In this document: positions 8,136 to 61,024 of the stretch, piece after piece
Position numbering within the stretch: position 1 is the stretch's first letter
Layout: each line of letters opens with the position of its first letter
Assembly (NCBI GenBank): GCA_014871385.1
Contig: CM026428.1
Coordinates: forward strand, 666,653 to 730,652
Direction: 5' to 3'
DNA from: Ceratodon purpureus
Lineage: Eukaryota; Streptophyta; Bryopsida; Pseudoditrichales; Ditrichaceae
Length of the DNA stretch: 64,000 bases
Program-made: the position numbers and the translations under genes
Notes under the pieces: generated by a model
Databases searched by the model: none
Told to the model about the DNA's origin: nothing
What the model saw: the letters and a program-made list of their open reading frames with translations, nothing else

Positions 8136-8563
8136 TACCTTAACACCATAGTAGGTTCGTTTTAAATAATTCTAAATATAAAAAACAAAAAAACTAGAAA
8201 ATTATGAAGGTATAAAAATGATAATAGTATAAATTAGTTTTTGCAATATTTTGTTATTTCTAAGCCACTTAAGGTCATTTTATCTGATTTTTTTCTGTTG
8301 AAAAACGGAAATTGAGAAATTTTGTTTTAAGAGACACACTTTAACCCCTGACTATCCTTAAAACCCAAAATGGGTTTTTGCGACTTCGGGTAGCCTAGAT
8401 ATAGAGGTTAAAAGTAATATATTTTTTTTCAAGATTTTTACTCGATGCTCCCTTTACAGTAAGGTCTATGTAGTAAAAAAATTGAAGCCAAATCCTAATT
8501 TTAGAATCTTCACCTAGAAGTTATAGGTTTCAAGTCTAAAATGGGCAATCTAAAATTAGGTCT

Positions 8564-9430
8564 TTAACCCCTAATTGACCAAAGTCCTAGAATGGGCGTT
8601 TTTGAAATTTGGACAGGTTCCTAAAAATTCAAATTTACTTCAAATTTTTTGAATTTTTTTGTGAAAAATGGTTTTTTCAAAAGGTTTATGGGAATATTTT
8701 TTTTATTTTTTTGGATGAAGTGAGCAAAAGTTATGCTCCTCTGAGCATAAAACGCTATTCCACGGGCAGGCTCTCAGCCACTGTGAATGCAGCAATTTCT
8801 GCCCGAAACTGCCCAAAACTGCCCAAAACTGCCAAAATCTGCCCAAATCTGCCTAAAGACAAAACTTTGAAATTCCACCAAAAATCGAAATTTTATTTTT
8901 TTCCAAAAATAAGAATTCCTATATGTAGAAGAGCCACTAGAGCATGTTTCCACCGTTTGGATTTTTAATCCAAGAATTTTTCATATGCTATTTTTATTGT
9001 AAAAAAACGGCCTTTGTATGTGAATTTCAGCATACCCCTTTGTGGAAATTGATGATTTTCTCAAGGTTCTACACCTTGTATGGGTATGAGATTTTGTGGA
9101 CATGTACCTAACTCACCTAGGAACGAGAATCTAAAGAGACGCCATCCAAAATTACTCAAAAAAATGGTTTTTTTGGACCCCAAAATACTGCTGTCCTCTT
9201 TTTGCAGGGTAAAAAAAACTTTTTTTTCAACTTTGAATGTTATAATCTCTCAAATGGTAAGGAATCAGATTGTGAGATTTGACATGCACATAGACATAGA
9301 AGTTAGATACAAGATCTTACGGTTGGAAATACCAAAATTGGTTTCAATTTTTCACTATCCAGCTTGCTTTCAAAAGGGAGTATTTGGTGGCAGTTTTGAG
9401 CAAAAACATCCTTGGTCAATTAGGGGTTAA
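8564..9430. mobile_element. TTAA-flanked non-autonomous element (family A), complete
   Basis: The element is 867 bp including both TTAA copies. Nineteen-base perfect terminal inverted repeats, TTAACCCCTAATTGACCAA, lie at 8564-8582 and, inverted, at 9412-9430. Copy 2 of the surrounding repeat (near 19340) has the same flanking sequence with a single TTAA and no insert, so this is a true insertion with a TTAA target duplication. CCCC/GGGG termini next to TTAA recall piggyBac-type elements. It holds no transposase; its open frames are low-complexity. Confidence 0.8.
8808..8860 (+). repeat. Short tandem repeat, CTGCCCAAAA-like units
   Basis: Five to six imperfect 10-11 bp units built on CTGCCCAAAA lie inside the family A element. 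Related gcccgg-rich motifs occur in the 36.4-37.5 kb element and near 60550. Confidence 0.6.
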
Positions 9431-10206
9431 AAAAAATAAAAATTGAAATATGTTCATAACCAAATCACTACTCAATTTTCATAGTGACCCAAGTCAAAAA
9501 GTTTACTAGTTTTACAAGGGCAGCCTCCAAAATTTACAAAGACAAGCTTCAAAGTTTTTAGTAAATCTTCAGTTTTCCCTTTAAAACTTTGTCGAAATTT
9601 GAGATCTTGAATTTTTTAAATCTTGTTTTTTTTCCTGAAAATCACAAATTTATAAAGGTACCTATTCACCGTTCACTTTTTCCTTAGCTTACAAATTGTT
9701 TTTGAAATGCATGTTTTACTATTTTGTAAATTTTATACCTTCTTATAGAAAATAATTTGCATGAAGGTCTAAAAAGCGTTTTGAGTCCCTAAAATTTTGC
9801 ATGAGCATACCTAACCGAGTTAGCTACATGGAAAAAAAAAATGACCAAAATGTTTGAGGTAACAATCTTCAAGTCTCCCTTTGCACCGTGGAAGGAATGC
9901 CTCTCGAGCAATGTCCAAAAAAACTTTTACACAAACTTTGAATGTTACGATGTTGAAAAGGATAATCATCCAACGATCAATTTTTTGAACTAGTACTACA
10001 AATAGGCTTAGATTCAAAATCTTAGGGTTGAAAGTCTTGAAAAGGATTTAAAGAGTTGTTTACACCCTTGGAAGTGCATAGAGGTAAAAAATTGCAGTTT
10101 TAAGGTTTCAAGCTTCCAAAAACACAAGGAAAGTTAGGGGTTTAGATGTCAAAAAATAAATAAATATTTCTTTGCAGAGGACTGAACCTGGTATGGTGTT
10201 ATGGTA

Positions 10207-10943: not shown

Positions 10944-12093
10944 TTAACTCCTAAAGTTCCTTGACCATGTTTCACCAAAAAACGCTCCAAAACTGTTATT
11001 TCTAATGTAAAAAGTATGAATGACTAAAACATCATTATTTTTTAATTCAAATTGTGAGATCTTCAACTAGGTTATTGTCATAGATAGCTCAAAAAAATTC
11101 ATCATAATTGACATATTCATATTTCTTTCTTAGAAATTCCATTGTTTTATAAAGTCCCAATCCAAACAATCAAAGTAAAGATTGATGTCCATCCTTCAAG
11201 TGAAAAAAGTTAAAAGTTAAAAGTAAAGAGTGATGTCCATCATTTGCTAAAATCCTTAATTAGCCGTGACCATTTCTCACTAAAAACACTCAAAAAATTT
11301 CTATTTCAGAAGCAAGAGTAAACAAAGCAAAACTAAAGCTTTCTTTGCATCTCTGATTATAGGATCTTACTTAAGACTTCTAAAAGATCTTACACAAAAA
11401 AATTCAAAATATTTGACTGCGGGGATTAGAAGATGATAGAGTTTGAAGTAAGAAATGTTGTTTTTTTGGTATCCTTTGCAAACAATATTAGCAGACTTTG
11501 ATTTCTCTTTGTACAAATTTTTTCACTATACAAGTTGAGGGTTTTGTACTAATATGATGTACATGATGTTAGTTATTTGTGCACCAGATTTTTGGATTTA
11601 ACAAAAAGGTGTAGCATTGTGAAAAAAGTTGTTCAAAAAACATGGGTTCATGTTATTGCTAATACCCATTCTATTTTTTAAATTAAAAATAAATAAAATT
11701 TATCTTTTATGCAATAAAGAAATAATTCTTTTCAAGCTTGACCCAAAAAAATGAGAAAACTTTGGCTCCTTATAAAATGAAAATCTTCCACAATATAAGA
11801 ATTGTATTTTGTTATCTCAAAACCAATCATGTTATTTACTTGCATAAAAAATCCGAAAGGTAGTTAAAGGATGTATCAAAATTTTAGAGTTACCCGAGGA
11901 GTAAGAAAAAATGCTTTGGGAACCATATACAATTTTTCCAATATCTAGTGCAAAAGAATTGTATTCCTACGAAGCTCTTGCGATTCTTATATCTACATAA
12001 AAATTCAAAAATTCATATCCAAAATTGACATTGTAGGAACCTGCCCAGAATTTCAAAAAGCCCTCTCAACCACTACAGCCAATTAGAGGTTAA
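10944..12093. mobile_element. Degenerate TTAA element related to family A
   Basis: The right end, AATTAGAGGTTAA at 12081-12093, and the 90 bp before it align in opposite orientation with the left 100 bp of the 8564-9430 element, sharing the GGAACCTG and AATTTCAAAAA stretches. The left end, TTAACTCCTAAAG at 10944, followed by GACCATGTTTC and CTCCAAAACTG, resembles the inverted right end of family A. A second, partly duplicated version of that left end occurs near 11258. The element is old and the left boundary is tentative. Confidence 0.4.
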
Positions 12094-12245: not shown

Positions 12246-12429
12246 AGGCTGATCAACTAATGAATATTTGATTTAAGAGAAAATTCAATGGGGTTGAAAA
12301 AGTTGTGGAGTAATATTTAAAGTAATGCCAGGTTTTCCAAAGAGCAGGAACATTTATCAGCTGGGCTAATTAGTTAAATGTTTGTTTACATGCAAGTATG
12401 CTATGTGGAATTAACCTTAACATATGTCT

Positions 12430-14225
12430 GGTCTGAAGTGAGCAACCAAGCAAGCCAGGAGCTGCCTTCAGACTTTGAAGGAAGAGTATGGGATCATCAT
12501 CATTCCACCACTTCCAAACTACCGAACAAATTCCACCCACAATTAAGCTATTACACTGATGGCTCCTTTATACCCCCAAAAGGAATTGGCCCAGGCGAAT
12601 GGATACGGGAGAAAGCTGTTTATGGTATTTATAACCCTAAAGGCCTCAATATCTACAAACGACTACACAGACACCAAAATATATTGAGCGCCAAAATGAT
12701 GGCAATATACAAAACCCTGAGAATTATCAATACACAATTCCTGAACGAACCCGCTTACATATTTACAGATTGTCTAAATGTATTATACTTACTTAATACA
12801 CAAATAAAACATTCCACCTTACACAATAGCCATCCGGATCAAGTCACACTTGCCTCCATGGTAGAACTCTTACATTAAAGAACACAACCAATTACAGTCT
12901 ATAAAGTCCGTGCACACATTGACATTGATGGCAATGAAGAAGCCGACAGACTGACAAAACAAGGGACACTCAAAGTTCATAGAAAGACTAAACACGCCTA
13001 CAAACACGCCCATGCCACCCCATACTACATCCAAAAAGACGATTGGTCATCCATGCTATCCGTTCCGGACAAAGGCCTCGTTCGAATCCTAGAAAAACAA
13101 ATCAAAAAATATGATTGAGAAACTAACTTAGAAATAAAAGCAATACAAACCCCCAACATTTGCAAATGGACTGGAAACGCAGATATAGATAATCTGTTTT
13201 CCAATGACTTTTGGCATAACCAGCTATAACCGACAAACAAAAATCATGTCTTATCAAATTCCGCACCGGTACTTACATGGGCCAAGCCATAAAACAACTA
13301 TTCTTTGATAGAGACAAATTTCCATCTATTACTTGCCCCATCTGTAGCTCCCTTGAACCGGATACATGGTTACATGTCCTAATCACATGCCAACAACAAC
13401 ACATCCATTCCCTTTGAGTAAGAAGACACAACAAAGCAGTTTGGGAAATCAGAAAACTCCTAGTCTCGTTCGAAAAATCCCGTTGTTTTATTCTAATGAA
13501 TGCTGGCACCTTCAGTATTAAACATCCTGAAAACACCGTTCCTAATTGGCTACTCCCTTGCATCTGTGGCACACAACGCTGCCATTGCAACTCTAGATTT
13601 AGACTAGACATTCTTTGCATCAAAGGCCCACCCTACCAAAGCGACCCCCCTACACAAGTTGACCCCAATCTTACAATCCAATTCATTGAATTCACCTATT
13701 CTAATGACCAATTCTCCCCTGAAACACTTACTACAAAAATAAACAAATACAATCCACTAATTGCTAGTCTTATCGCTAGCGGCTCGAAAGTTGACCCCCT
13801 TCTTATCATCACTACAGGCGCTCGCGTCACCACACACATTCCTTCAATGAAACTCCTTGAAGACAACTTCAAACTCTCCATGCCTACCATCAGAAATACC
13901 TTTAAAAATATAAACACCATTGCGCCATGTCTATCCTCCTTCACAAACAAAGAATTGAAAACCACCAACCCTTACCAGAAACCTTCGACCCCCTATAATC
14001 ACAGGTTATGCCAATTCACACACCAACACCCACACACCAACATCCCCAGTACCTCACGTTACCCTTTCTAAGCGCCTCACTCCCTCCCTACTCCAACCTA
14101 CAGAACTTCCGCTATTGTTTTTTGTTACCGGTTACTGGTGACTAAAGTGTCTACTCTTGAAAGGGGGGAGTAGATCTTTACTCTCATACCTTTGTCTTGT
14201 GGACATCGGATTGGGGGTGGATCGA
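12430..14225 (+). mobile_element. 5'-truncated LINE relic with RNase H and restriction-like endonuclease domains
   Basis: This is the 3' half of a non-LTR retrotransposon. An RNase H domain comes first: YTDGSF (first catalytic Asp) at about 12550, IFTDCLNV (third acidic residue) near 12765 and GNEEADRLTKQG near 12935. The position expected to hold the catalytic Glu reads SAKMMA, so Lys replaces it. Next comes a CCHC finger, CPICSSLEPDTWLHVLITC (13340-13396), then a Cys-rich patch and an R2-like restriction-type endonuclease: RLDILCIKG, IQFIEFTY, and KINKYNPL followed by ITTGAR (13590-13825). The frame ends at 14071. Stops at 12876, 13115, 13228 and 13417, plus a frame change near 13240, show it is dead. 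No reverse transcriptase remains. The 3' UTR carries a hairpin (14130-14190) that recurs at 35460. Confidence 0.75.
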
Positions 14226-14264
14226 ACATATATATATTTAATTCACGTTGGTCTCCTACAGACA

Positions 14265-14604
14265 CCTCCCTCCTCCCTCCCTCCCTCCCCCCTCCCTCCC
14301 CTCCCCTCCCTCCCTCCCCTCCCTCCCTCCCTCCCTCCCTCCCTCCCTCCCTCCCTCCCTCCCTCCCTCCCTCCCTCCCTCCCTCCCTCCCTCCCTCCCT
14401 CCCTCCCTCCCTCCCTCCCTCCCTCCCTCCCTCCCTCCCTCCCTCCCTCCCTCCCTCCCTCCCTCCCTCCCTCCCTCCCTCCCTCCCTCCCTCCCTCCCT
14501 CCCTCCCTCCCTCCCTCCCTCCCTCCCTCCCTCCCTCCCTCCCTCCCTCCCTCCCTCCCTCCCTCCCTCCCTCGCTCCCTCGCTCCCTCGCTCCCTCCCT
14601 CCCG
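14265..14604 (+). repeat. CCCT tetranucleotide microsatellite (GGGA on minus strand)
   Basis: About 340 bp of nearly pure CCCT repeat, with CTCG variants near both ends of the pure block. It follows directly on the LINE 3' region. The proline/serine/leucine open frames on plus and glycine/arginine frames on minus are artefacts of the repeat. Confidence 0.95.
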
Positions 14605-16169
14605 GATCAACATCAATCTGAAGTTTGGCTATAGTAACACTTTGCTATGGTGTCTTTTCCTTACCTTCTCCAAGTTTCCGTGGTAAAAGAAATTAAAATC
14701 AAAAATCAAAAAATGTTGAATGAATTGCAAATACAAATGTTTATGATTCTATGTACAAAGTATTTGTAAGTTATGGGTCATTGCCACTACGAACAGACAC
14801 TTTATTCACGCCAGCCGTGAACAAGGACCGGTGTTTCTACCTATCTATTTGGAAGTTATTGGCTAGGTTTGGGGTTGGGAATAAGGGCTTCAACTAGCTA
14901 AATTAGGACACATGCTACAACCGGCAAGATTGCCACCATGGCATGGCTGGTCCCATGCCTCAAAAACCAGCCCTAACCTTGACTGTTTTGTCGAAAATAT
15001 CCCTAACCCTGGAAAGAGTTCTCGTTCAGTGCCTGGAGTCTGGGTATCTTTGATTATGGTCGGGTCAACTAACTACCCGGTTGCTTTGATAACCAGCAAC
15101 AAGCTGGTGTGCAGGACAAAATAGATGATTTGTTGAGTGAACAAGAAGTTTGAACTTCCCCATACACTCAGGTGCAAAGTCCATGGACATCAGATAACTT
15201 ATATTCTCAAAGAATGATGGGCTCAATACAAACTCCGGTTTTGCCCATATGGAGCACATTAGAAATGTTATGTCCCCAAAATATGTGTACTGATGTTGCC
15301 GGGGAAAGGTACTTTTTACTATGGCAGTTTTCAATTTGCAATGTACTTAAACATCTTCCCGGAATTACTTGTTATTACTACGGATAGTAAGTCCAAGTGT
15401 ACACAATTCCAATTAACACATGACGATAATCTGGTGGATGTGACAAAATATATTTACACATGATTGTCAAGTGGGTTAGGTTGAGCTGATCGTCCTCCTG
15501 ATTTTCTTTGAATCTTTTGTGCTGATTTTGGGTCCCTCTTTTGGTACATTTTCCTCTCATCCACACAACTTAACTTACTCTCAAACAGCTATGACTCATT
15601 GATTAGCTGGCCACTGATCGTTATACCATATGGTGGCATAATACTGTGTCCGTTTCAACACAAATTCTACACTGACCTCTAGGCACTAGCAGAATAGATG
15701 TACGTACATAAAACATATGTCACCATTCCTTCATTGACGTGCAAGAAAACCTCCCATATATGTGCATGTAGTGTGCTCACTAACATAAATGGTGTGTAAA
15801 TGAGGTTTTGAGTTCATTATTCTCCACTGTATATGTATCCTAGGTCCACATTTTTTCTTAATAAAAAATGTGAGTCCGAGTATATGTTGTTTTATATAAA
15901 TCAATATTGTGAGATTGCACTAATTGATGTTGTACCCTTCGTAAAGCTTCTATAATATAGTCTATGAGTTATCTTGTTTGTATATTATGAGTATTAAAAT
16001 TTACAACTTTTAATTACAATTCAAATGGTTTCTTGAAATTTAAACTTTATTGCTTTACACGTATTCTGGATGTAAATAGAAGTGTATTATAAATATCTTA
16101 AGCAAATAATCTTACTATAGGTTAATTATTCAGCTAATGTGGATCATGTTGATGAATAAAATATAAAAA

Positions 16170-18110: not shown

Positions 18111-18628
18111 TCAAATCCCTAAAATAATCAATTTGATCACAAACATTCCCAAATCTAATAAGATGCCTTCACATGCCATTTTTAATAAATGTTTTGAACT
18201 TCAATCGTTAGTCAAATTGCATAATTCACATAATGGAGTTGGTTTTTGTGAAGAAAAAAAATAACAAGTGAAAAATAATCATCTCAAATTAAATTTGTAT
18301 AGAAAGTCAATAAACCTTTGACCATTCATAAGTCCATAAATTTTTAATCAATCATATTCTTGATTTACTCAATGTATGTCATATTAAATCTTTGGTTCAT
18401 ATCATTTCCAAAAATTCTACTTTAGATTCACTGTTCCACCATCCAAAAGTGATAAAAATTAAATTATTAATTTTAAAAAGAAAAAAAAAATACTTTGGAT
18501 AGTAAAAAAATTGGTCAAAATTATTGACATCAATCAAATTTAGTATCATTGGCTTTCCTTAAGTATTGTTTACAAAGACAAATAGAAGACTATATGAAGT
18601 AAGAATATATGGCTAAAAATCTGACATC

Positions 18629-19560
18629 TAAACCCCTAACTTTCCTTGTGTTTTTGGAAGCTTGAAACCTTAAAACTGCAATTTTTTACCTCTATGCACT
18701 TCCAAGGGTGTAAACAACTCTTTAAATCCTTTTCAAGACTTTCAACCCTAAGATTTTGAATCTAAGCCTATTTGTAGTACTAGTTCAAAAAATTGATCGT
18801 TGGATGATTATCCTTTTCAACATCGTAACATTCAAAGTTTGTGTAAAAGTTTTTTTGGACATTGCTCGAGAGGCATTCCTTCCACGGTGCAAAGGGAGAC
18901 TTGAAGATTGTTACCTCAAACATTTTGGTCATTTTTTTTTTCCATGTAGCTAACTCGGTTAGGTATGCTCATGCAAAATTTTAGGGACTCAAAACGCTTT
19001 TTAGACCTTCATGCAAATTATTTTCTATAAGAAGGTATAAAATTTACAAAATAGTAAAACATGCATTTCAAAAACAATTTGTAAGCTAAGGAAAAAGTGA
19101 ACGGTGAATAGGTACCTTTATAAATTTGTGATTTTCAGGAAAAAAAACAAGATTTAAAAAATTCAAGATCTCAAATTTTGACAAAGTTTTAAAGGGAAAA
19201 CTGAAGATTTACTAAAAACTTTGAAGCTTGTCTTTGTAAATTTTGGAGGCTGCCCTTGTAAAACTGGTAAACTTTTTGACTTGGGTCACTATGAAAATTG
19301 AGTAGTGATTTGGTTATGAACATATTTCAATTTTTGTTTTTTTTAAAGACCTAATTTTAGATTGTCCATTTTGGACTTGAAACCTGTAACTTCTAGGTGA
19401 AGGTTCTAAATTAGGATTTGGCTTCAATTTTTTTACTACATAGACCTTACTGTAAAGGGAGCATCCAGTAAAAATCTTGAAAAAAAATATTACTCTCCTC
19501 ATTTAAGCTGCCTGAAATTGCAAAAACCCTGTTTGGGCTTTAAAGATAGTTAGGGGTTAA
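18629..19560. mobile_element. TTAA-type inverted-repeat element, copy 2 (family B), uninterrupted
   Basis: Inverted copy of 8341-10144 without the family A insertion. The ends are TAAACCCCTAACTTTCC at 18629 and GATAGTTAGGGGTTAA at 19545-19560. The site that is occupied in copy 1 reads as an empty TTAA in this copy near 19340. It splits the minisatellite tract. No protein is encoded; the open frames at 18756-18953 and 19314-19502 are repeat sequence. Confidence 0.75.
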
Positions 19561-19699: not shown

Positions 19700-20450
19700 T
19701 AACGAAATATCCAAAATTTTATACTAGTTCAATGTGGTAATAAGTAATGAATTTTATTAATGTCGTGGTCAAGGTCACCATTGATTTGTGTGCTAATTAA
19801 GATATTTTAGAATTCAATCTAGTTGAAAGTATTATCTTTGGTCAGTGTAATAATAAGGATCATTTTAAATTTATGCGGTAATAGATACCATCTTTGGTTG
19901 TGGTGGTAAATATCATCTTTGGTCAATGTGGTATTGACTAACCATTTTAATTCAATGTGGTAGTTACTATTATTTCTCGTCAGTAAGTGTGATAATCAAT
20001 ATCATATTTGATCAGTGCACTAGTCAATATCCATTTCAGTGCAATATAGTAGTCAATATTATTTAAGTCAGAGTGCTGGTCAATATCATCTTTGGTCAGT
20101 GCATTAGTCAATATCCATTCCAATTCAATATAACTGTAGTGGTCAGTATTACCTGAGTCAAAGTGGTGGTCAACACCCATTTTAGTTCAAGAAAGTAGTC
20201 ATTATTATCTGAGTCAATGTAGTGGTCAATATCCATTTCAATTCCGTATAGTAGTCAGTATTATTTGAGTCAAAGCGATGGTCAATATAGTAGTCAGTAT
20301 TATCTGAGTCAGTGTGGTGGTCAATATCCATTTCAATTCAGTATAGTAGTCAGTAACATTTGAGTCAAAGTGGTGGTCAATGTCATTTTCGGTTAGTGCA
20401 GTAGTCAATATCCATTTAAATTCAGTGTAATAATAGTTTTTTTTCAATTT
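19700..20450. repeat. Minisatellite, units of about 56 bp made of two half-units
   Basis: Tandem, imperfect copies of a unit that reads roughly as a GTGGTCAATATCCATTTCA half followed by a GTAGTCAGTATTATCTGAGT half. Repetition is clearest at 19980-20440. The DHHFDS/YYTELKWILT-like minus-strand frames are products of the repeat. Confidence 0.75.
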
Positions 20451-22822: not shown

Positions 22823-24678
22823 GTGTTGGTGGGAGGTGCCAAAGTGTGTCCTTGGGCCAATTCCATCGTCACCATTCCAGCTCTGCCTCAGCAGCAGCGT
22901 CGTCCTCGCATGCTAAGTTATGCTGCATTGCCTCTCTCTCATCATCACCCGTTGCTGTAGTTCCTGCTACCAGGCTCAGCTCCTGCACCTCTACTCTACT
23001 CTACTGCCAGGCTCTCTGTCTCTCTGTCTGTAGCTGCCGTAGTTGCTGCACAGCCTGACCTGGGCCACTCAAGCCTCGATCGGGGACGGACCTGGCCAAG
23101 GGCAAGCCCAAAGGGCAAAGGCCAAGGCCAAAGGGCAGAGCAACGCAGGGCAGGGCAGGGCAGGCTCATCTCCGAGGAGCTCATCAGCTGATGAGCTGCA
23201 TGCTGCTGCTGCTCCTCAGCTGGTGCCAATAAGTATCGGGGCACTTGCAAGCCCAGGTTGTGGGAGCGGCAATTAAGAGGCAGGCAGGAGGCAGGGGGTC
23301 TTATGAGCCGGGTGCTGGAGCTCTGCCGCGGGCATTGATGGTGAGTGACCTTCTTGCGGAGAGTATTCATCACTAACTTTAACTTACTGCATATATCACT
23401 GGATGATCATGTCTTCGTAAGTTAGTGGCTTTTCGAAGTTTGGGTTGGGTTAGGCTGGGTTTGGGACAGGGGGTGCTGCTGCGCTGTTCTCTGCATGCTT
23501 GAGTGGACTGTAGTCTGTGCTGGGCCTGATATTGACGTTGCGGGTCTGTGGGAGGAGCCGTCGAGGCTGCAGCTTGAGCTTATCTTCTCTTCTGATCCAT
23601 AAGTAGAATGTGAGGGCGGAGGAGGGATGAGCTTGAGGGAGCTAGCTGCTGGCTCAGGTCTCTTGACGAAGGGCACTGGTCGCAGCTGAGCTCGCCGACT
23701 TTTGAGTTCGTCTGGCAATGTTGTTTGTGTTGGAGAGGACATACCAAGTTTTAGCTCGGCGATATTGATAAGAGCACTAGCTAGAGGTTGTTTGATTGTC
23801 ACTCGATCGGTGAAGTGTAGCAGTCTTCGTGCAGGTCTTTCCGCCCACTTGAGAACTGTAGGCAATAAAATACGTGTCTTTCGTTGCAGAGGTTTGGAGG
23901 TTTCTGCACCTTGACGCAGCTGGAGTGCAAGTGATTAAGTGGGTTTCAGTGGGTGCGAGCATTGTGGTGATTCTTGTTAAGTTGCCTGGGCTTTCAATCT
24001 TTCGTGGAGTTGCTGGTTTACTTGGCAATCGCCGAAGGACGATGAGAAGAGCAATTGTCGTTATTCTTTCGAGGTAAGGTCGCTTGAATTCTTTGGCAGC
24101 TTTTTCTTGGGTAGGACTTTCGAAGTTTCTTGTAGATGTTAATCTCGATCTTGATTGTTTTCTTTCCTCAGGGTTTGATTGAAGCTGGCTACGAGATCGT
24201 TTAGTGTCGAATTGTTTACCCTTCCGGTAACATTGGTGCTTCCATGGACAAGAATTATGAACAGCCTTGTTTGCCGTAGAAGTAGTTTTGAGATTTAGTT
24301 CGATACCCCGAACTTGGGATGAGTCTGTTTGATCTATCGGAGTCCAGCTGGGACCAAGGCATTCCCTTCTCATTCAGAAATGATGTGATTCAGCTGTTGA
24401 GACAGATTTCCAGTTTGTATTGCTGGCCTGTACTCGCTACTGAAAGCTTGACTGTAGGTCCCAGAATGCCCGAAGTTCCTTCAACACAGTAGCAGACATG
24501 GACTAAAGCTTCTTTTGTTTGATCCCCGCAGGCAATAGACACTCCATTGTGTCGCTGAAGAAGGACTTATTAGTCACGACACTCTGACAGTCCTGTGAAT
24601 TGTGATTCAGGCTCTGAAATACAGATTCAGAACCAAATCGCATTGAATCCACTCCTCCAAGTCCGCTCTCACAACGCA
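22823..24678 (+). other. Promoter and 5' leader region of the EXORDIUM-like gene
   Basis: GC content is clearly higher than in the preceding DNA. Open frames on both strands are low-complexity and I regard them as shadows. A good donor (GAG|GTAAGG at 24074) and acceptor (CCCGCAG at 24525-24531) suggest an intron of about 458 bp in the 5' UTR; another donor-like GATG|GTGAGT lies at 23339. These are inferred from splice consensus only. Confidence 0.4.
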
Positions 24679-25746
24679 ATGGTGAGCCATGGCATCCACC
24701 GCTTCTGGATCTCCGCAGTCATCGTCGCAGCCATGTCGGTCTGCGCACATGCAAGAGGAACAGTAATTGACGATAGCAACGATTCCACAGCGGTTGTTAA
24801 CCATCCCTCCGCCATTTATCGCCCATTCCGGCCATGGCCAGACAACTCCCACACGCGAGACTCCAAGGTGCTGGTACAAGAGCCGATTGTCAACATGCAG
24901 TACCACATGGGGCCAGTGCTCACGTCCGCGATCCATGTCTACATAATCTGGTACGGCACATGGAAAAACTCGCAGAAGAGCATAATCCGCGACTTCCTGA
25001 GCTCGATCTCGGCCCCATCACCCGTCCCCGGCCCATCAGTGCAGCAATGGTGGTCCACAGTGCAAACCTACACCGACCAAACGGGCGCCAACATCAGCGC
25101 ATCAATCACGGTGGCTGGCGAGCACGAAGACAGCCACTACTCCCACGGCAAGGTCCTGTCCCGCCTCACCGTGCAAGAGGTCATCCGCAGCGCATTGGCG
25201 GAGAACAAAGGCACCCTTCCTGTCAACACGAAAGGCGGCCTCTACATGGTGCTCACAGGCGAAGATGTCATGATGCAGGACTACTGCCGAGCGGTCTGCG
25301 GATTCCACTACTTCACCTTCCCTGCCAAAGTGGGCTACACGCTCCCATACGCCTGGATCGGAAATTCAGGCAAATCATGCCCGGAGACTTGCGCGTACCC
25401 GTTCGCCATCCCCCAGTTCATGGCCGCGGCCATGTCACCCCTCAAGAGCCCTAACAACGATGTGGGGGTGGACGGCATGGTGAGCGTCATCGGCCACGAG
25501 CTTGCTGAAATCTCCAGCAACCCGCTCATCAATGCCTGGTACGCTGGTGAGAATCCCTCCGCACCTAACGAGATTGCAGATCTCTGCGAGGGCATGTATG
25601 GACCAGGCGCAGGGGGTGGCTATCCCGGCACCGTGGCGGTGTCCAAGTTCGGCGCCAGCTACAACATGCACGGCGTGCGAGGACGCAAGTTCCTGGTTCA
25701 GTGGATCTGGAACTCGGACCTAAACTCTTGCCAAGGCCCTCACTGA
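24679..25746 (+). CDS. EXORDIUM / PHI-1-like secreted protein
   Basis: Intronless frame of 355 codons, the usual EXORDIUM/phosphate-induced-1 length (about 300-350). The ATG at 24679 gives a short polar start, then a hydrophobic stretch (FWISAVIVAAMSVCAHA), a likely signal peptide, so the protein should be secreted to the apoplast. Family landmarks follow in order: MQYHMGPVLT, IWYGTW, SVQQWWSTVQTYTDQTG, the HYSHGKVLSRLT region, VLTGEDVMMQDYCRAVCGFH, YAWIGNSGKSCPETCAYPFA, then VIGHELAEISSNPLINAWYA and a Cys near the end. EXORDIUM proteins promote cell expansion and respond to brassinosteroid and carbon status in flowering plants; the molecular activity is unknown. Longer in-frame non-ATG starts upstream are unlikely. 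GC-rich coding sequence contrasts with the AT-rich surroundings. Confidence 0.92.
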   Translation: MVSHGIHRFWISAVIVAAMSVCAHARGTVIDDSNDSTAVVNHPSAIYRPFRPWPDNSHTRDSKVLVQEPIVNMQYHMGPVLTSAIHVYIIWYGTWKNSQKSIIRDFLSSISAPSPVPGPSVQQWWSTVQTYTDQTGANISASITVAGEHEDSHYSHGKVLSRLTVQEVIRSALAENKGTLPVNTKGGLYMVLTGEDVMMQDYCRAVCGFHYFTFPAKVGYTLPYAWIGNSGKSCPETCAYPFAIPQFMAAAMSPLKSPNNDVGVDGMVSVIGHELAEISSNPLINAWYAGENPSAPNEIADLCEGMYGPGAGGGYPGTVAVSKFGASYNMHGVRGRKFLVQWIWNSDLNSCQGPH

Positions 25747-30112: not shown

Positions 30113-33100
30113 CTTATATTCATGGTACATACATATTCTTCATCAAATACGTGATTGCTTCTAGGTGCAGGCTCTACTTTAGAAAGTAGCCTCCACAACT
30201 TTTGGATGATGGATTTGTAGATTGATTACATGCCATTTGTAAATTTTAAGTCATTTTTAGCATGAAATATATACTTACATTTCAATTTTAGTATTAAATA
30301 AGAATCAAAAGCTTAAACAATACAACATGAAAGGTTTAATTGTGTTTATTCTTGATGTTATTTATCTGAATTTAATTCTAAAATTTTAAAAATAGTTGTA
30401 ATTACTTGTTCTTCTTTCATTTTCAATCTTCTATTTTCATTTGAAACTCTTTCAAGATGTTCTTTTAGATCATATCTATTTCCAAGTGCACTAGAATTGA
30501 ACTGATTGATGTCTTCACCAATTATTTCTTGACTTGCACATTCTAACATAGATGTTGAATCTTTTAGCGGATCCGATTCATTAGCAACACTATTTTTAAT
30601 TTCACATTTTGCAGGCATTTTCAATGATTGCCATCCTTCTTTTGTGTTCTCAAACAAATCAATTGGAACTTTTTCCTTGGATATGGAAATTTTATTTTTT
30701 TCATTATAATCTTTAGAAGACAATGTTGCATCTTTTTGTAATTTGTTGTTTCCACACTCCATAATCAACTTGAGCTTATCAAAGTCATGTTGTAATATAT
30801 TCTTTTCCAAAGAAATTGTTGCAACATCTTCTAGTAATCTTTCGATCCGGCTTTCATATTTCTTTTTTTGAACAACCCATGTACTTATCACATCTTGTAA
30901 TTCTTCTTGGAATGCTTGTTTTTTATCATCGGCACTTTGTTTTTCATTGTACAAGTCCTCCTTTAGTTTTTCAACTTCATGTTGCAATATGTTTTTTTCT
31001 AGCAAGAAATTCCTAGACAAATCATCTGTCACCTTTTCAACTTTAAATTGCAAAGAATCTTTTTCCGAAGAAACATTGGTTAATTCATTTTTTAAGCTTT
31101 CAACCTCACCTTGCAATAAATCTTTATCTGCGTAGACCCTCCGCAATTCAATTGTTAGTCTTTGAACTTCAGATTCTAATGAATGTTTCTCGGAATGAAT
31201 TCTAGTTAGTTCATTTGTCATTCTTTCAACTTCTTGTTGCAATAGAATCTTTTCAGAAGATGTTTTTGTCAGTTCATTTGTTTTTGATTCACATTCTTTT
31301 TGCTTTAAATTATTCTCAGAATAACTTTTGATCAATTCATTTGTTTTTGTTTCGATGTCGCGTTCCAAAGTATTTTTTTCACAAGACACTTTCTGAAAAT
31401 CTTTTGTTATTTTTTCTAACTGAATTTCTAATTCCTGTCTTTGGGCCACTAACGTACTTGATGTAGTTTGTAACTCACGTTGAAATTCATTTTTTATTTT
31501 TTGTACATTGTGCTTTTCAAGTTGAATGTTCTCTTGAAGCTTGTTTATATTACTTTGCAACGCATCGTTTTCATAAAAAATTGCGAAAAACAACTTTTGA
31601 AGTTCTTGGGAAAGCTGTTGCAAATAGAATTTAACATGTTGCTCCGAGCATGACGTTAATATTTTGGTTTGCGGATTTTGGTGTAAACTATGGCATCTTG
31701 TATTGAATGTTTCATAAGAGTCATGAACTATATTATCAATGTGTACAAATGGAGTGGTGGTAATTTTTTGAATCTCTTCAGATAAAATGTGACAATCATC
31801 AGTGTCAATTGATGGTAGTTTTTGTAGACTGCATATAATATCATTTAATCTATTTTTTAATACGCACTTTGTGTTTTGATTTGATGAAGAGCTTACACTT
31901 ACATCACATTGGACATTATATTGCTCTATATTATGTCCTGCATTTGAATTGCATTCACATATTTCATTTGTCCATTTTTCTACTTCAGCTCGCAACTCTT
32001 GAGTATCAATAAAATCTGATGATGTGGTATGTAGTTGAAGCTTTTGAAAATGATGAGACACTTGTTGTTTTCCTTGAATCAATCCTTGAGATAAACTTTG
32101 AATTTCATTGTAAAATTCGTCTTTCTTGGATATTGTTTGTTGTAATTGAATTGTTAAACTTAAGACTTTTTCTTCAAGTTCTTTTTTAGTACATTCATGA
32201 GAAGAAGTCACAAGATTCAATTCATTTGTAAGCCTTTGTATTTCTTCATTTGATGTTGATAAAGTTGCATTCCATATCCTGTATACACATGATATCTAGA
32301 AGCTGAAGTGCATTTAGACCGGTGGTCAAATCTTTCATCGTAAATCATAAATTTTGAATCTGAGCATGATAAGACCAACCAACGTCGTTAGTGGCTTATG
32401 TTAATAAAAATATTGAAAATATTGATTAAAATGTGTATAATTCTTCAACATTATAATTAATATGGTAGAAATCATAATATTTGACAAAGCATATTTAATT
32501 CCTTTTCTAAAGATCTACCTATTGTTTTCTTCTTGTTGTTTTGAGACCGTATTCAATTGTTCATTGAACTCCAATATCTTTTGTAATAATAATATTAGAA
32601 TTAAATCTTTAGACTTTCTTTGATTTTCTGGAATTTGAAGTAATTCATCATATCTAAGGAAGCAAAGAAAGGGGGAAAAATCAGCATAAATGATTTAAGT
32701 TAGTATTACAATAATATAAAATATCATCATATTTAAAGTTCAAAATAAATCAAATTTTGAATAAGATTAAAAACTATTATATTGACTTACAATGGTTTCA
32801 TAACATCAAAATCATGTAAAGATAAATCTTGCAATGCTTCAATAAGCATTTTCCACTCATGATCTTCTTCCTAATAAGACAATAAATTTTGAAATGGTAA
32901 ATATTTGAAACTATCAAAAGTTTTACAGATTTTTTTGTGTACTCAAACCAATTTTCATCTTTAAACTTACATTTCAAACTAAAATTGAGATATTTATTTT
33001 GAATTTAAAAAAAATTGTACCTTAAAATCAGGAGTATTGATATTGTAATTGTTACAGCATTCTTCCATCCTGTTTTTAAAATTATGATCTTATTTATCAT

Positions 33101-36324: not shown

Positions 36325-37803
36325 TTAACCCTTTAATGCCTAAGGCGGTCTCAGCACAATAGTTCAGCAAAAAACACATCAGTTGAGCTATATCCCTCTT
36401 AGTGGTCCACGTCATTTAACCCCTAAAGCATTTGGCCATAAAATCCCAAATTCTGCCTCAAATCTGCCCTGTTTTAGTTCAAGGTAGAATTATGAAAATT
36501 TAAACGTAATTAGAAGAATCGAACCGTAGGAACTAGTACCTAACTTGTACACGTATATGTACACAAAATTTTAGAATGTAACTCCTCACCGATTAGAAGA
36601 TCATAAGGTTTGAACTTGAGTGAAAAGTTTTTTTTGGTCCTGCCCGGCAGGGACAGCCACACTTTGGAGAGTAAAACAGCCAATTTTTTGAGATCTAGTG
36701 GTTGGAGGCTCTTCAGTTTTGGATTCTAAAGTGAGTTGGGAGTATGCTCAAAAAAATTGAAGAGAATACAACACAGAGAAGCATTGGAAAACCACATTTC
36801 TAGTGATGGGAGTCAAATGAAATGCATATACACTGGCTCTTTTTCCACACTACAAATGCCTAAGAAGATCATCTATTTTTTGAAATCCGAACGGTGTATA
36901 CGTGCATTTCTATGGAAAAGAAATTTTGGAGGAAAAAAATCTAAAAAATAAACAAATCCGAAATAGATATGAATTTTATAGTGGTTTAGGAGGAGATAAT
37001 GGTGAAGGAAAAATGGGTGATGAAGGTGACCCAATCACTGTAGATCTGTTTGACAGTTTTATAAAACTTGGAACTTTGACTGAATGTATCTCAAGATCCG
37101 TACGGTCAAAATTAACAAAATTTGGAAAGTAGACTAATTTGATGGCTCTGAACAAGATCCTACGGCTGGATTTTTCAAAATCAAGTTTTAAAAAAAATTG
37201 TAAAACGATTTCAGAAAGGATCATTTGGAAGTCACTGTAGATTGTCATAGATTTGGTACACCACTTGCATCGGCCACAAACCTGCCCGAGCTGCCCTGAA
37301 TTGAATTTTGATCTTTAAACACGATTTATTTCTTAACTATGGGCCCGATGAAAGTGAAATTTGGTCTTGTTAGAAAGATATGACAATTTCCCATGTTGTG
37401 CCAAAGTTATAGCCACATCCGGTAAAATTTGACTCATAGGGAGCCTGACCGGACCCTAAATCATACCAAAACTGTTGAGTTGATGCTTTAGGGGTTAAAA
37501 AAGAGAATCTGCCTTCTCCAACCGTACGGATGTGAAGGGGATGATGTCACGATGTCGTCATCCCTAGATGAAATTCATACAACCATGGATGAAGGGTCAT
37601 TATAATAGAAATATGCCACCTTTCAGGTCATATCTGACACATAAAGTATGCAAATTCCCTAAATTTTAGTGCATTGGACAGATTAACTACCTGCCCCTAT
37701 TCGATGTAAAGAACTCATATCCAAATTCCACGTCATTCAGACACAGGCATCAATAAACATACTTTTGCAACCAAAATTGGTGCCGTAGGCATTAAAGGGT
37801 TAA
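36325..37803. mobile_element. TTAA-flanked inverted-repeat element (family C, outer), interrupted
   Basis: Terminal inverted repeats match at 21 of 22 positions: TTAACCCTTTAATGCCTA(A)GGC at 36325-36346 and its inverse at 37782-37803. TTAA stands at both outer ends, so the same TTAA/CCC terminal pattern is seen as in families A and B. It is interrupted by another TTAA element at 36416-37498, leaving about 90 bp on the left and 305 bp on the right. No transposase is encoded. Confidence 0.75.
36416..37498. mobile_element. TTAA-flanked inverted-repeat element (inner) nested in family C
   Basis: Sixteen-base perfect terminal inverted repeats TTAACCCCTAAAGCAT lie at 36416-36431 and, inverted, at 37483-37498. 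Total length is 1083 bp. The internal sequence shares loose motifs with family A and B interiors (GCCCGG-rich patches; phrases around TTACGGTT...AAAATT and AATGTTA). Short open frames at 36736-37248 are not recognisable proteins. Confidence 0.72.
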
Positions 37804-59418: not shown

Positions 59419-61024
59419 TGTATGGTGACGCATTTGTTTTTTAATGACTACTTGATATGGAAAAATATGTGGTGCTTTTTGCATGGCTTTAACGAGGAAA
59501 ACCATGAATGTTTCATTTGTAGATTCATACAATAATAAGATTTTTTGAAGGAGGTATATGATTAACTATTTGGAATTGATTTTTTCATGATATTTTTCTT
59601 TATAGTTTCTGAATTTCATATACTCTAATCACTAGACATATTCTCCAATTATAAATGTGAATGAAGTAAAGAATAAGGTGAGATTAGTTTTGTACTTGGA
59701 ATTGGCATAATATGTAAAAATCAGATGAAATGTTAAATTTAAAATTAGGATTCGATTTTTAATAAATAAATAGAAAAAATACATAATAATAATATGATTA
59801 AAAGAGGATTTGGAAAATCAATAGGATGAATTTATGAAAGATTCATAGTGATAATCATCAATCTTTTAGGCTTTACATCTTGTAGTGCATGTTCAAAGAT
59901 GATAAGTGGCTCCAATTTGTGATTTCTTGTCTTTTTTTTTTTTTTTTTCCAATAATAATGCCAAACCACATAGTCATTAAACAAGTTTAGAGGTTTTGAA
60001 TTGAGACATGTACTATGCAAGTTTAAGAATTTTGTTTCTCTTGTTGTTTAGAGTTAGACCACAATGTAAAATTAGTGATTGTTATCTTGATACAGATTGA
60101 TGATGAATTTAAATTTAAGAAAACCATCTCTTTAAAATCTTTATTGATAAAGGATTTAAAAGAAATTGGTGTCAAAAGAATAATATTTAGGCCATTCCAT
60201 CATGGATAAGGCAAATTAACCCTTAAAGTACAATAGTCATGGAATGAGTTTTTTGAGATTTTGGACAAATTCTTGTAAAGTCAAATTTGAATCTATTTTT
60301 TAGGAATTTTTTTATAGATGTAAAGAATTGCAAGAACTTTTTTAGAATATAATCTTTTTTACACTAAACATTGGAAAAAATATTTATGGTGCCTACTTAG
60401 ATTTTCATTTGGCAACACCAAATTTTTGCAACTACCCTCTACTACCTCTAGTATTTTATCTACAAGCAAGTAATATAATTTTCTTTGAGATTATCAAAAA
60501 ATTCATTTCTATGATGGATAATTTTCACTAAAATAACTGTCAAAGTATTGTCACCCTGCCGGGCAAAAAAAGGAGTATAAAAAAATTCTTCACAATTTGT
60601 TTCAGTTATCACTGGAGTGGCTCCCTTTTAGATTAATTTTCTTCAAACCACAACCAACCCCACTTCAAGCTTTCCTAATACCATAGAGTACTTTGGACTT
60701 GATACCACAGCTTCATGCTTAATATGCAATTTACACACAACAGGACTGTAACAAAAATTGATGCTTGAATACAAAAACAATCACTTAAATAAGCATAATA
60801 TGTATGGTATAATAGCCGTGGTGGATGTTCAAAGATGCCATAAGATTCTAGGCAAAGATGTGCGTGTAAACATATTAATATTCCACTGCTGGGCTTCAAC
60901 AAATGTGAAGACTATTAATCGCAAAATGCTCTCTACTGGTCAACATGATTATCATCCATCTTAATTAGCTCATGTTGGCATAATTGGCTTATTTGTTGAA
61001 AGGTCCCAGCCTGAAAGAATTGAA
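59419..61024. other. AT-rich intergenic with a partial TTAA element
   Basis: No gene seen. The left part of a family A-like element lies at 60208-60340 (next entry). A run of about 20 T lies near 59930-59949. The last 300 bp should contain the 3' UTR of the minus-strand ALDH gene. Confidence 0.4.
60208..60340 (+). mobile_element. Partial TTAA element, family A-like left end
   Basis: TTAACCCTTAAAGTAC and the following 110 bp align with the left end of the 8564-9430 element (shared order: TAGTC..GGAATG.G, TTTTTGA.ATTTGGACA, TTC, AAATTTGAAT). No matching right end was found, so it is truncated or decayed. A GCCCGGCAGG motif in inverse orientation near 60560 also occurs near 36645. Confidence 0.45.

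Follow-up and report, generated by a model that had tools for sequence, protein, structure and literature searches.

We report that an 859-bp element at positions 8568-9426 on the forward strand of the window (here defined as the whole 64,000-base stretch of Ceratodon purpureus DNA that was analysed) is, as judged from its sequence, a non-autonomous piggyBac element residing in a moss, which presumably is or was mobile. The best explanation taken as a whole, to which we give a probability of about 95%, is that this element (henceforth referred to as E1) is a non-autonomous DNA transposon of the piggyBac superfamily, upon which a transposase of the type encoded by an element on contig C12 would act. 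The reading draws on the dispersal of E1 in many copies, on a target duplication of 4 bp that is mostly TTAA, on CCCC termini, on empty sites without gaps and on ends that match those of a transposase-bearing element. The piggyBac superfamily is known, and is listed for land plants, and E1 adds a member that is notable for its plant host. The window corresponds to C8:666653-730652 of a 362,488,568-base assembly with 151 contigs, one of which (C6, by inference the sex chromosome) measures 110.5 Mb.

Results

E1 is bounded by TTAA and by perfect inverted ends

The inverted ends of E1 begin with CCC and are perfect over 15 bp, with CCCCTAATTGACCAA at 8568-8582 on the forward strand and its reverse complement at 9412-9426, and they are enclosed by the two TTAA copies of the target duplication at 8564-8567 and 9427-9430. 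An earlier note on this DNA had placed an 867-bp element with 19-bp inverted ends at 8564-9430; the element is indeed there, and those figures count the TTAAs in, the element proper being 859 bp long and its repeats 15 bp. None of 15 order-2 Markov shuffles of the window yielded a perfect inverted pair (14 or 16 bases) bounded by TTAA, TA-rich pairs being excluded from these shuffle counts, compared to three in the real window (8564/9430, 36325/37803 and 36416/37498). A looser scan (18 bases, at least 13 matches) returned a mean of 0.33 pairs per shuffle (30 shuffles) compared to four real pairs, the fourth of which (59441/59980) is not of the E1 type and is perhaps due to chance. A poxvirus domain indicated by Pfam in one E1 frame (E 0.046) fell far under its cut-off and was disregarded.

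E1 copies duplicate four bases, mostly TTAA

Near full-length copies of E1 are present at least 40 times in its own genome, at identities of 93-100% (the best 40 of 3625 candidates were scored), and all 867 query bases were aligned in 35 of these 40. When all 40 copies were fetched with their flanks, the same 4 bp were found at both ends of 38, and TTAA on both sides of 35. Since four copies (L021, L024, L025 and L026) share their flanks, they were counted as one insertion, which reduces the 40 copies to 37 independent insertions, 35 of them with identical 4 bp and 32 with TTAA/TTAA. The two copies without identical flanks are L044 (CTAA versus TTAA) and L049, in which the left end has decayed, and the matched duplications other than TTAA are CTAA, TTAT and ATAA, seen once each. 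CTAA and other non-TTAA sites are known for a few animal piggyBac elements, according to the accessible part of PMC10813416. The genome-wide comparison of flanks and empty sites of the E1 end, which the earlier note had proposed, therefore returned a 4-bp, mostly TTAA, duplication, and the other target duplications which that note had kept in mind (such as TA or TTA) did not appear.

The exact sequence TTAACCCCTAATTGRCCAA occurs 110 times in forward and 93 times in reverse orientation in the genome, and the same pattern read backwards occurs 0 and 0 times. The first 100 of these 203 exact E1 ends comprised 35 pairs, all spanning 806-897 bp, and 30 unpaired ends; none of the 100 lies within 15 kb of a listed match to the transposase domain PF13843 and no transposase-bearing element was found among them, the C12 element described below lying outside that range and having been reached from the transposase side. 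The median pairwise identity of the 37 independent copies is 95.5% and the closest pair is 99.4% identical, noting that the copy lists of E1 and of the elements E3 and E4 described below hold best matches only and older copies are therefore under-represented in them. At position 11 of the inverted repeat, 30 of the 37 copies have A in both arms, six have G in both arms and one is mixed, indicating that both arms changed together between subfamilies. We infer that the movement of E1 is recent or continuing.

An element with the ends of E1 encodes a candidate transposase

An element that ends exactly like E1 is located at C12:6836143-6841677 (locus L075; 5535 bp, TTAA on both sides). On the left, its first 49 bases are identical to those of E1, as are 59 of the first 60 and 166 of 208 overall; on the right, the last 20 bases are identical and 143 of 229 aligned columns agree (only 62%). 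Of the C12 autonomous element, E1 retains only these terminal stretches (some 208 bp on the left and some 229 aligned columns on the right), and its middle has no detectable similarity to that element and codes for nothing recognised. The C12 element contains an uninterrupted frame of 1019 codons, without an ATG before codon 171, in which PF13843 is matched at residues 468-847 (E 1.4e-79). The only matches of the C12 protein in the PDB at E <=0.001 were T. ni piggyBac (6x67, E 6.5e-27) and piggyBat (9c0f, E 5.7e-25). Its residues D610, D697 and D814, which are invariant in all five aligned moss domains, align with D268, D346 and D447 of T. ni piggyBac (residue numbers obtained by counting along the alignment), which we take to be the catalytic triad of that enzyme. 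A match to a C-terminal zinc finger (PF13842) in the C12 protein scored E 3.8e-4 and 21.4 bits, short of the 24 bits that Pfam requires, and no such match was listed for the other two moss transposases scanned. A second such element, at C10:10425938-10431384 (5447 bp, 1003 codons), has outermost ends that are nearly identical to those of E1, with TCGGCC where the C12 element and E1 have TTGACC. Comparison of the C12 and C10 frames gave a dN of 0.055 and a dS of 0.377 for the catalytic (DDE) part and a dN of 0.53 and a dS of 0.98 for the N-terminal part, which is therefore under weaker constraint.

A comparison of E1-E4 with the first 12 transposase loci (low-complexity filter on) gave no similarity. 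These loci extend only 1500 bases beyond the domain; with the filter off, one of them (L057) matches the first 172 bases of E1 at 63%, and the C12 partner came to light in wider stretches. Within the window, Pfam detected no transposase in the 40 open frames searched (some of them inside E1, E2 and E3) of the 177 frames of at least 70 aa, and none of the 116 listed PF13843 matches of the genome (116 of 998 candidates scored) falls in it. The earlier note was thus right that no transposase is seen in the window, but the mobilising source, which it had called unknown, now has a strong candidate elsewhere in the genome: a search for a DDD transposase gene bounded by similar TTAA-CCC ends, as that note had advised, led to the C12 element, which has PF13843 and the three aspartates and would be expected to act on E1.

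Non-autonomous piggyBac MITEs are mobilised in trans by a related transposase, and the shared ends make E1 best read as a passenger whose ends would be bound by a C12-type transposase. We propose that such a transposase, acting in trans, binds the ends of E1, that E1 would then be excised at the TTAA-CCCC border via TTAA-hairpin ends and joined to a new TTAA, and that the donor site would close to a single TTAA. TTAA specificity and footprint-free excision are features of the piggyBac mechanism in the accessible part of PMC7351741.

E1 is assigned to piggyBac in preference to other superfamilies

The window copy alone is ambiguous, since its TTAA flanks and TTAA empty site also fit a duplication of TA (with ACCCC ends) or of TAA (with one unpaired end base), and a Tc1/mariner (TA) or PIF/Harbinger (TWA) element that landed in TTAA by chance would account for this single copy and its empty site equally well. 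Because a 3-bp duplication, or one of TA combined with ACCCC/GGGGT ends, would look identical at TTAA, the matched non-TTAA pairs weigh more than the TTAA cases. The CTAA, TTAT and ATAA pairs display a 4-bp duplication that is impossible from either, which excludes a TA or TWA duplication, and in 35 of the 37 independent copies an identical set of four bases stands at both ends (TTAA in 32). The TA duplication of Tc1/mariner and the TWA duplication of PIF/Harbinger are thus not what the E1 copies display, and we regard this alternative as refuted. Kolobok and Sola3 also duplicate TTAA, as does E1, and since TTAA alone does not separate these superfamilies, E1 could in principle belong to either, with a convergent likeness to piggyBac ends. 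However, the element that shares the ends of E1 encodes a PF13843 transposase with the piggyBac catalytic triad, whereby the partner transposase of E1 differs from what a Kolobok or Sola3 element would lead one to expect, and the ends of E1 (TTAACCCCTAATTGACCAA) start with CCC, as in animal piggyBac elements (PMC10813416, accessible part); we therefore consider membership of Kolobok or Sola3 highly improbable. The piggyBac assignment, which the earlier note had based on the TTAA duplication and CCC termini, is borne out by the 4-bp duplication and by a DDD transposase with the same TTAA-CCCC ends.

E1 resides in an older element, a second copy of which has an empty site

E1 is held by an older TTAA-CCCC element, E2A (8341-10151, forward strand; CCCC at 8345 and GGGG at 10137-10140), and a second copy without E1, E2B, is present in inverted orientation at 18622-19560 on the reverse strand (CCCC at 18633, GGGG ending at 19556 and TTAA at 19557-19560). 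The earlier note had described a longer repeat around E1 and an inverted sister copy with a single TTAA in place of the insert; we find this empty site at 19343-19346 in E2B. That the repeat is itself a TTAA-CCCC element had been missed, as had further elements in the window. When the flanks of E1 are joined with one TTAA removed, their alignment to E2B is gap-free at the junction and has one substitution a few bases off.

Besides the two E2 copies of the window, 38 others were scored, at 85-89% identity (the best 40 of 2287 candidates), of which 22 begin exactly at AACCCC of one end and 19 end exactly at GGGGTTAA of the other. The AACCCC-side end was read in 16 of these 38: TTAA precedes the CCCC position in 14, TTAG in one and ATAA in one, and three of the 14 share one flank and hence probably represent one insertion copied with its surroundings. 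The E2 copies L087, L088 and L089 (on C3, C12 and C6) have a common flank on three contigs, suggesting that this E2 insertion is carried along as part of a larger repeat. E2A and E2B are 99.6% identical over the 725 bases to the right of E1 and 88% identical to its left, a contrast suggestive of local inverted copying or of gene conversion. They also have in common an 11-bp flank (TTTAGATGTCA at 10141-10151, that is TGACATCTAAA before CCCC), which was absent from all 16 further E2 ends that were read, the best of them agreeing at 7 of 11 bases. E2 copies that start at query base 23 were considered as a challenge to this flank being special, and the point was dropped, as none of the 16 ends carries the flank and three share another. 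Since the right part is 99.6% identical, the 11-bp flank is absent from the 16 other ends and the other scored copies reach only 85-89%, the sequences indicate that, most likely, the right part of one E2 copy was copied locally onto the other.

A clean empty site in E2B cannot alone tell whether E1 was ever present, because piggyBac excision can leave one TTAA, and the same holds for any empty site beside a piggyBac element, which by itself cannot separate insertion from precise excision. E2B could thus have lost E1 by precise excision, rather than never having been filled, given that footprint-free repair of piggyBac excision is possible (PMC7351741, accessible part) and that the copying between E2A and E2B, as suggested by their right parts and common flank, possibly occurred with E1 present. 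On the other hand, all 38 other scored E2 copies cover the E1 site in 813-952 bases and hence have no insert of the size of E1. When E2 copies were aligned across the junction, that in L005 lacked continuity only by a gap of 2 bases in a run of T immediately to the left of the TTAA, and that in L007 was diverged at the site. In addition, among the best-match copies, those of E1 differ from each other by at most 7%, whereas those of E2 differ from E2B by 11-15%, so that E1 looks like the younger arrival. We therefore consider precise excision from E2B unlikely and prefer a site that was never filled. Elsewhere in the genome, the E1 copy L043 sits in a diverged E1 relative, for which three of the four paralogous sites displayed are gap-free at the junction and the fourth (L010) shows small gaps close by; none of these sites has TTAA as its four bases. 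Likewise, the E1 copy L016 is embedded in a sequence related to the transposase element end L067, and the diverged site has bases other than TTAA.

PF13843 transposase domains are numerous in the moss genome

At least 116 PF13843 domains are present genome-wide (the best 116 of 998 candidates, E 4.2e-73 or better), some with stop codons, and domains without stops are found on all 13 large contigs; none was detected in 14 control genomes. We sampled 20 of the 116 loci (19 from the first 25 and one further down) over the stretch 1.0-2.6 kb beyond the domain. The end TTAACCCC, detected by its octamer GGGGTTAA, was present downstream in 19 of the 20, L075 among them, the exception being L083, and in the opposite orientation in one of the 20; as background, the octamer occurs five times, both orientations counted, in 28,308 bases of E1 flanks. 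Loci L051-L053 end with TTAACCCCCTAACGTCC and L056 with TTAACCCTTAAACG, and no such end was seen within the 1500-base flanks of L058. A separate lineage is represented on C1 and C5 by two transposase elements of 6408 and 6122 bp, which are 99.1-99.5% identical over their shared parts, one having some 260 bp more; TTAA-CCCC is present at all four ends of this pair and BLAST gave no match between their flanks.

The stop-free domains on 13 large contigs, the 99% pair and the non-coding families with related ends (E1, E3 and E4) are consistent with a large native piggyBac population in this moss, with several CCCCTAA-ended lineages, that was moving until recently or still is, a reading that we put forward tentatively and at slightly less than even odds. 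If true, it would mean a plant-adapted piggyBac system, with transposase frames of about 1000 codons, working in a land plant without an animal vector, and piggyBac would possibly still be reshaping the 110-Mb contig C6. A collection of viral sequences gave 191 pattern matches for relatives of the transposase domain, none of which was confirmed by tblastn, and this search thus gave no hint of a viral source. Two viral matches to the exact 19-base E1 end, each being a single end that lacked a partner in the parts that were read, were taken as chance.

Comparison with known piggyBac elements

The moss elements have a TTAA target, CCC termini and a DDD transposase in common with T. ni piggyBac (6x67) and piggyBat (9c0f). 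They differ in their plant host and in their size, the transposase-bearing elements being 5.4-6.4 kb long with stop-to-stop frames of 923-1019 codons (four were read end to end) compared to 2472 bp and 594 aa for piggyBac, and, unlike T. ni piggyBac and piggyBat, they have transposases with a long low-complexity N-terminal part and CCCCTAA ends. Non-coding and non-autonomous relatives of piggyBac reportedly include MITEs in coral genomes and mPok of Daphnia. MITEs are usually shorter than 0.86-1.08 kb, and E1 and E3, although non-coding like the coral and Daphnia elements, are longer, at 0.86-1.08 kb, and have a moss host.

The earlier note had considered piggyBac-type elements to be rarely reported from land plants, a claim that is only partly checkable and has to be qualified, in that the accessible part of a 2015 survey lists PiggyBac among the superfamilies in all taxonomic groups studied (PMC4438587) and that of a fern repeat annotation counts 1230 PiggyBac copies (PMC6890710). 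These plant annotations use the same superfamily label and, in their accessible parts, give counts or a table entry only, with no autonomous element, end or duplication. In the literature searched (most subscription papers, Repbase and Dfam being outside its scope) none of the listed papers announces a complete piggyBac element from a moss, which is not to claim a first report, and the single paper that turned up for piggyBac in Ceratodon purpureus contains only the word piggybacking. The piggyBac element is a footprint-free gene vector, and its natural history comes mostly from animals. Matched non-autonomous and transposase-bearing moss elements, with identical ends and young-looking insertions, would provide a native plant system in which to study how piggyBac behaves in the genomes of plants, and the moss elements would supply candidate transposases already suited to plant cells.

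Other elements and features of the window

Further elements of this type are present in the window. E3 (36420-37494 on the forward strand, 36416-37498 with its TTAAs) is 1075 bp long, has the ends CCCCTAAAGCAT and TTAA on both sides, and resembles E1, one of the two being inverted, with 64.6% identity across an alignment of 461 bases. It lies inside E4, a 392-bp element with the ends CCCTTTAATGCC and TTAA on both sides, which it splits (36329-37799 on the forward strand, 36325-37803 with TTAAs). At least 40 copies of E3 are present at 95-100% identity (the best 40 of 1288 candidates), 35 of the 40 being aligned end to end including both TTAAs, and the right 305 bases of E4 have at least 40 copies at 97-100% (the best 40 of 53 candidates). 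A second empty site is provided by an E4 copy without E3 (L084), which aligns over 400 columns, 392 of them identical, with no gap and with one TTAA at the junction. At L084 and C6:44870255, on the 110-Mb contig, an E4 copy is separated by no more than about 1 kb from where a transposase-bearing element ends. Two E3 copies overlap by exactly four bases with a neighbouring E3-like partial match (89% identical at C11:1069097 and 68% at C5:8325745), an arrangement that would fit insertion of one into the TTAA of its neighbour.

E5 (10944-12093) is a decayed relative of about 1150 bp with TTAA at both ends; by eye, its left end resembles the ends of the transposase-bearing elements L069, L071 and L077, and its right end is 69% identical to the first 129 bases of E1. 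The pairing of these two ends is tentative, as they match each other poorly. E6 (60216-60360, forward strand) is a single end of a decayed relative, TTAACCCTTAAAGT, which is 67% identical to the first 140 bases of E1 and for which a second end was not found.

Among the remaining features of the window, RNase H-like frames at 12378-13115 have a weak Pfam match and are probably the remains of a LINE-type retroelement, a long GGGA/TCCC microsatellite at 14140-14680 is open in several frames, and loose repeats of a GGTCAATATCATCTTTGGTCAGTG-like motif at 19760-20450 adjoin E2B. A gene for a phosphate-induced protein 1 (EXORDIUM-like) is located at 24574-25746 (PF04674, E 2e-102), and other gene pieces match Exo84, ArgJ, a RING finger and, weakly, aldehyde dehydrogenase. 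A coiled-coil-like frame of 645 codons without a clear family occupies 30358-32295 on the reverse strand.
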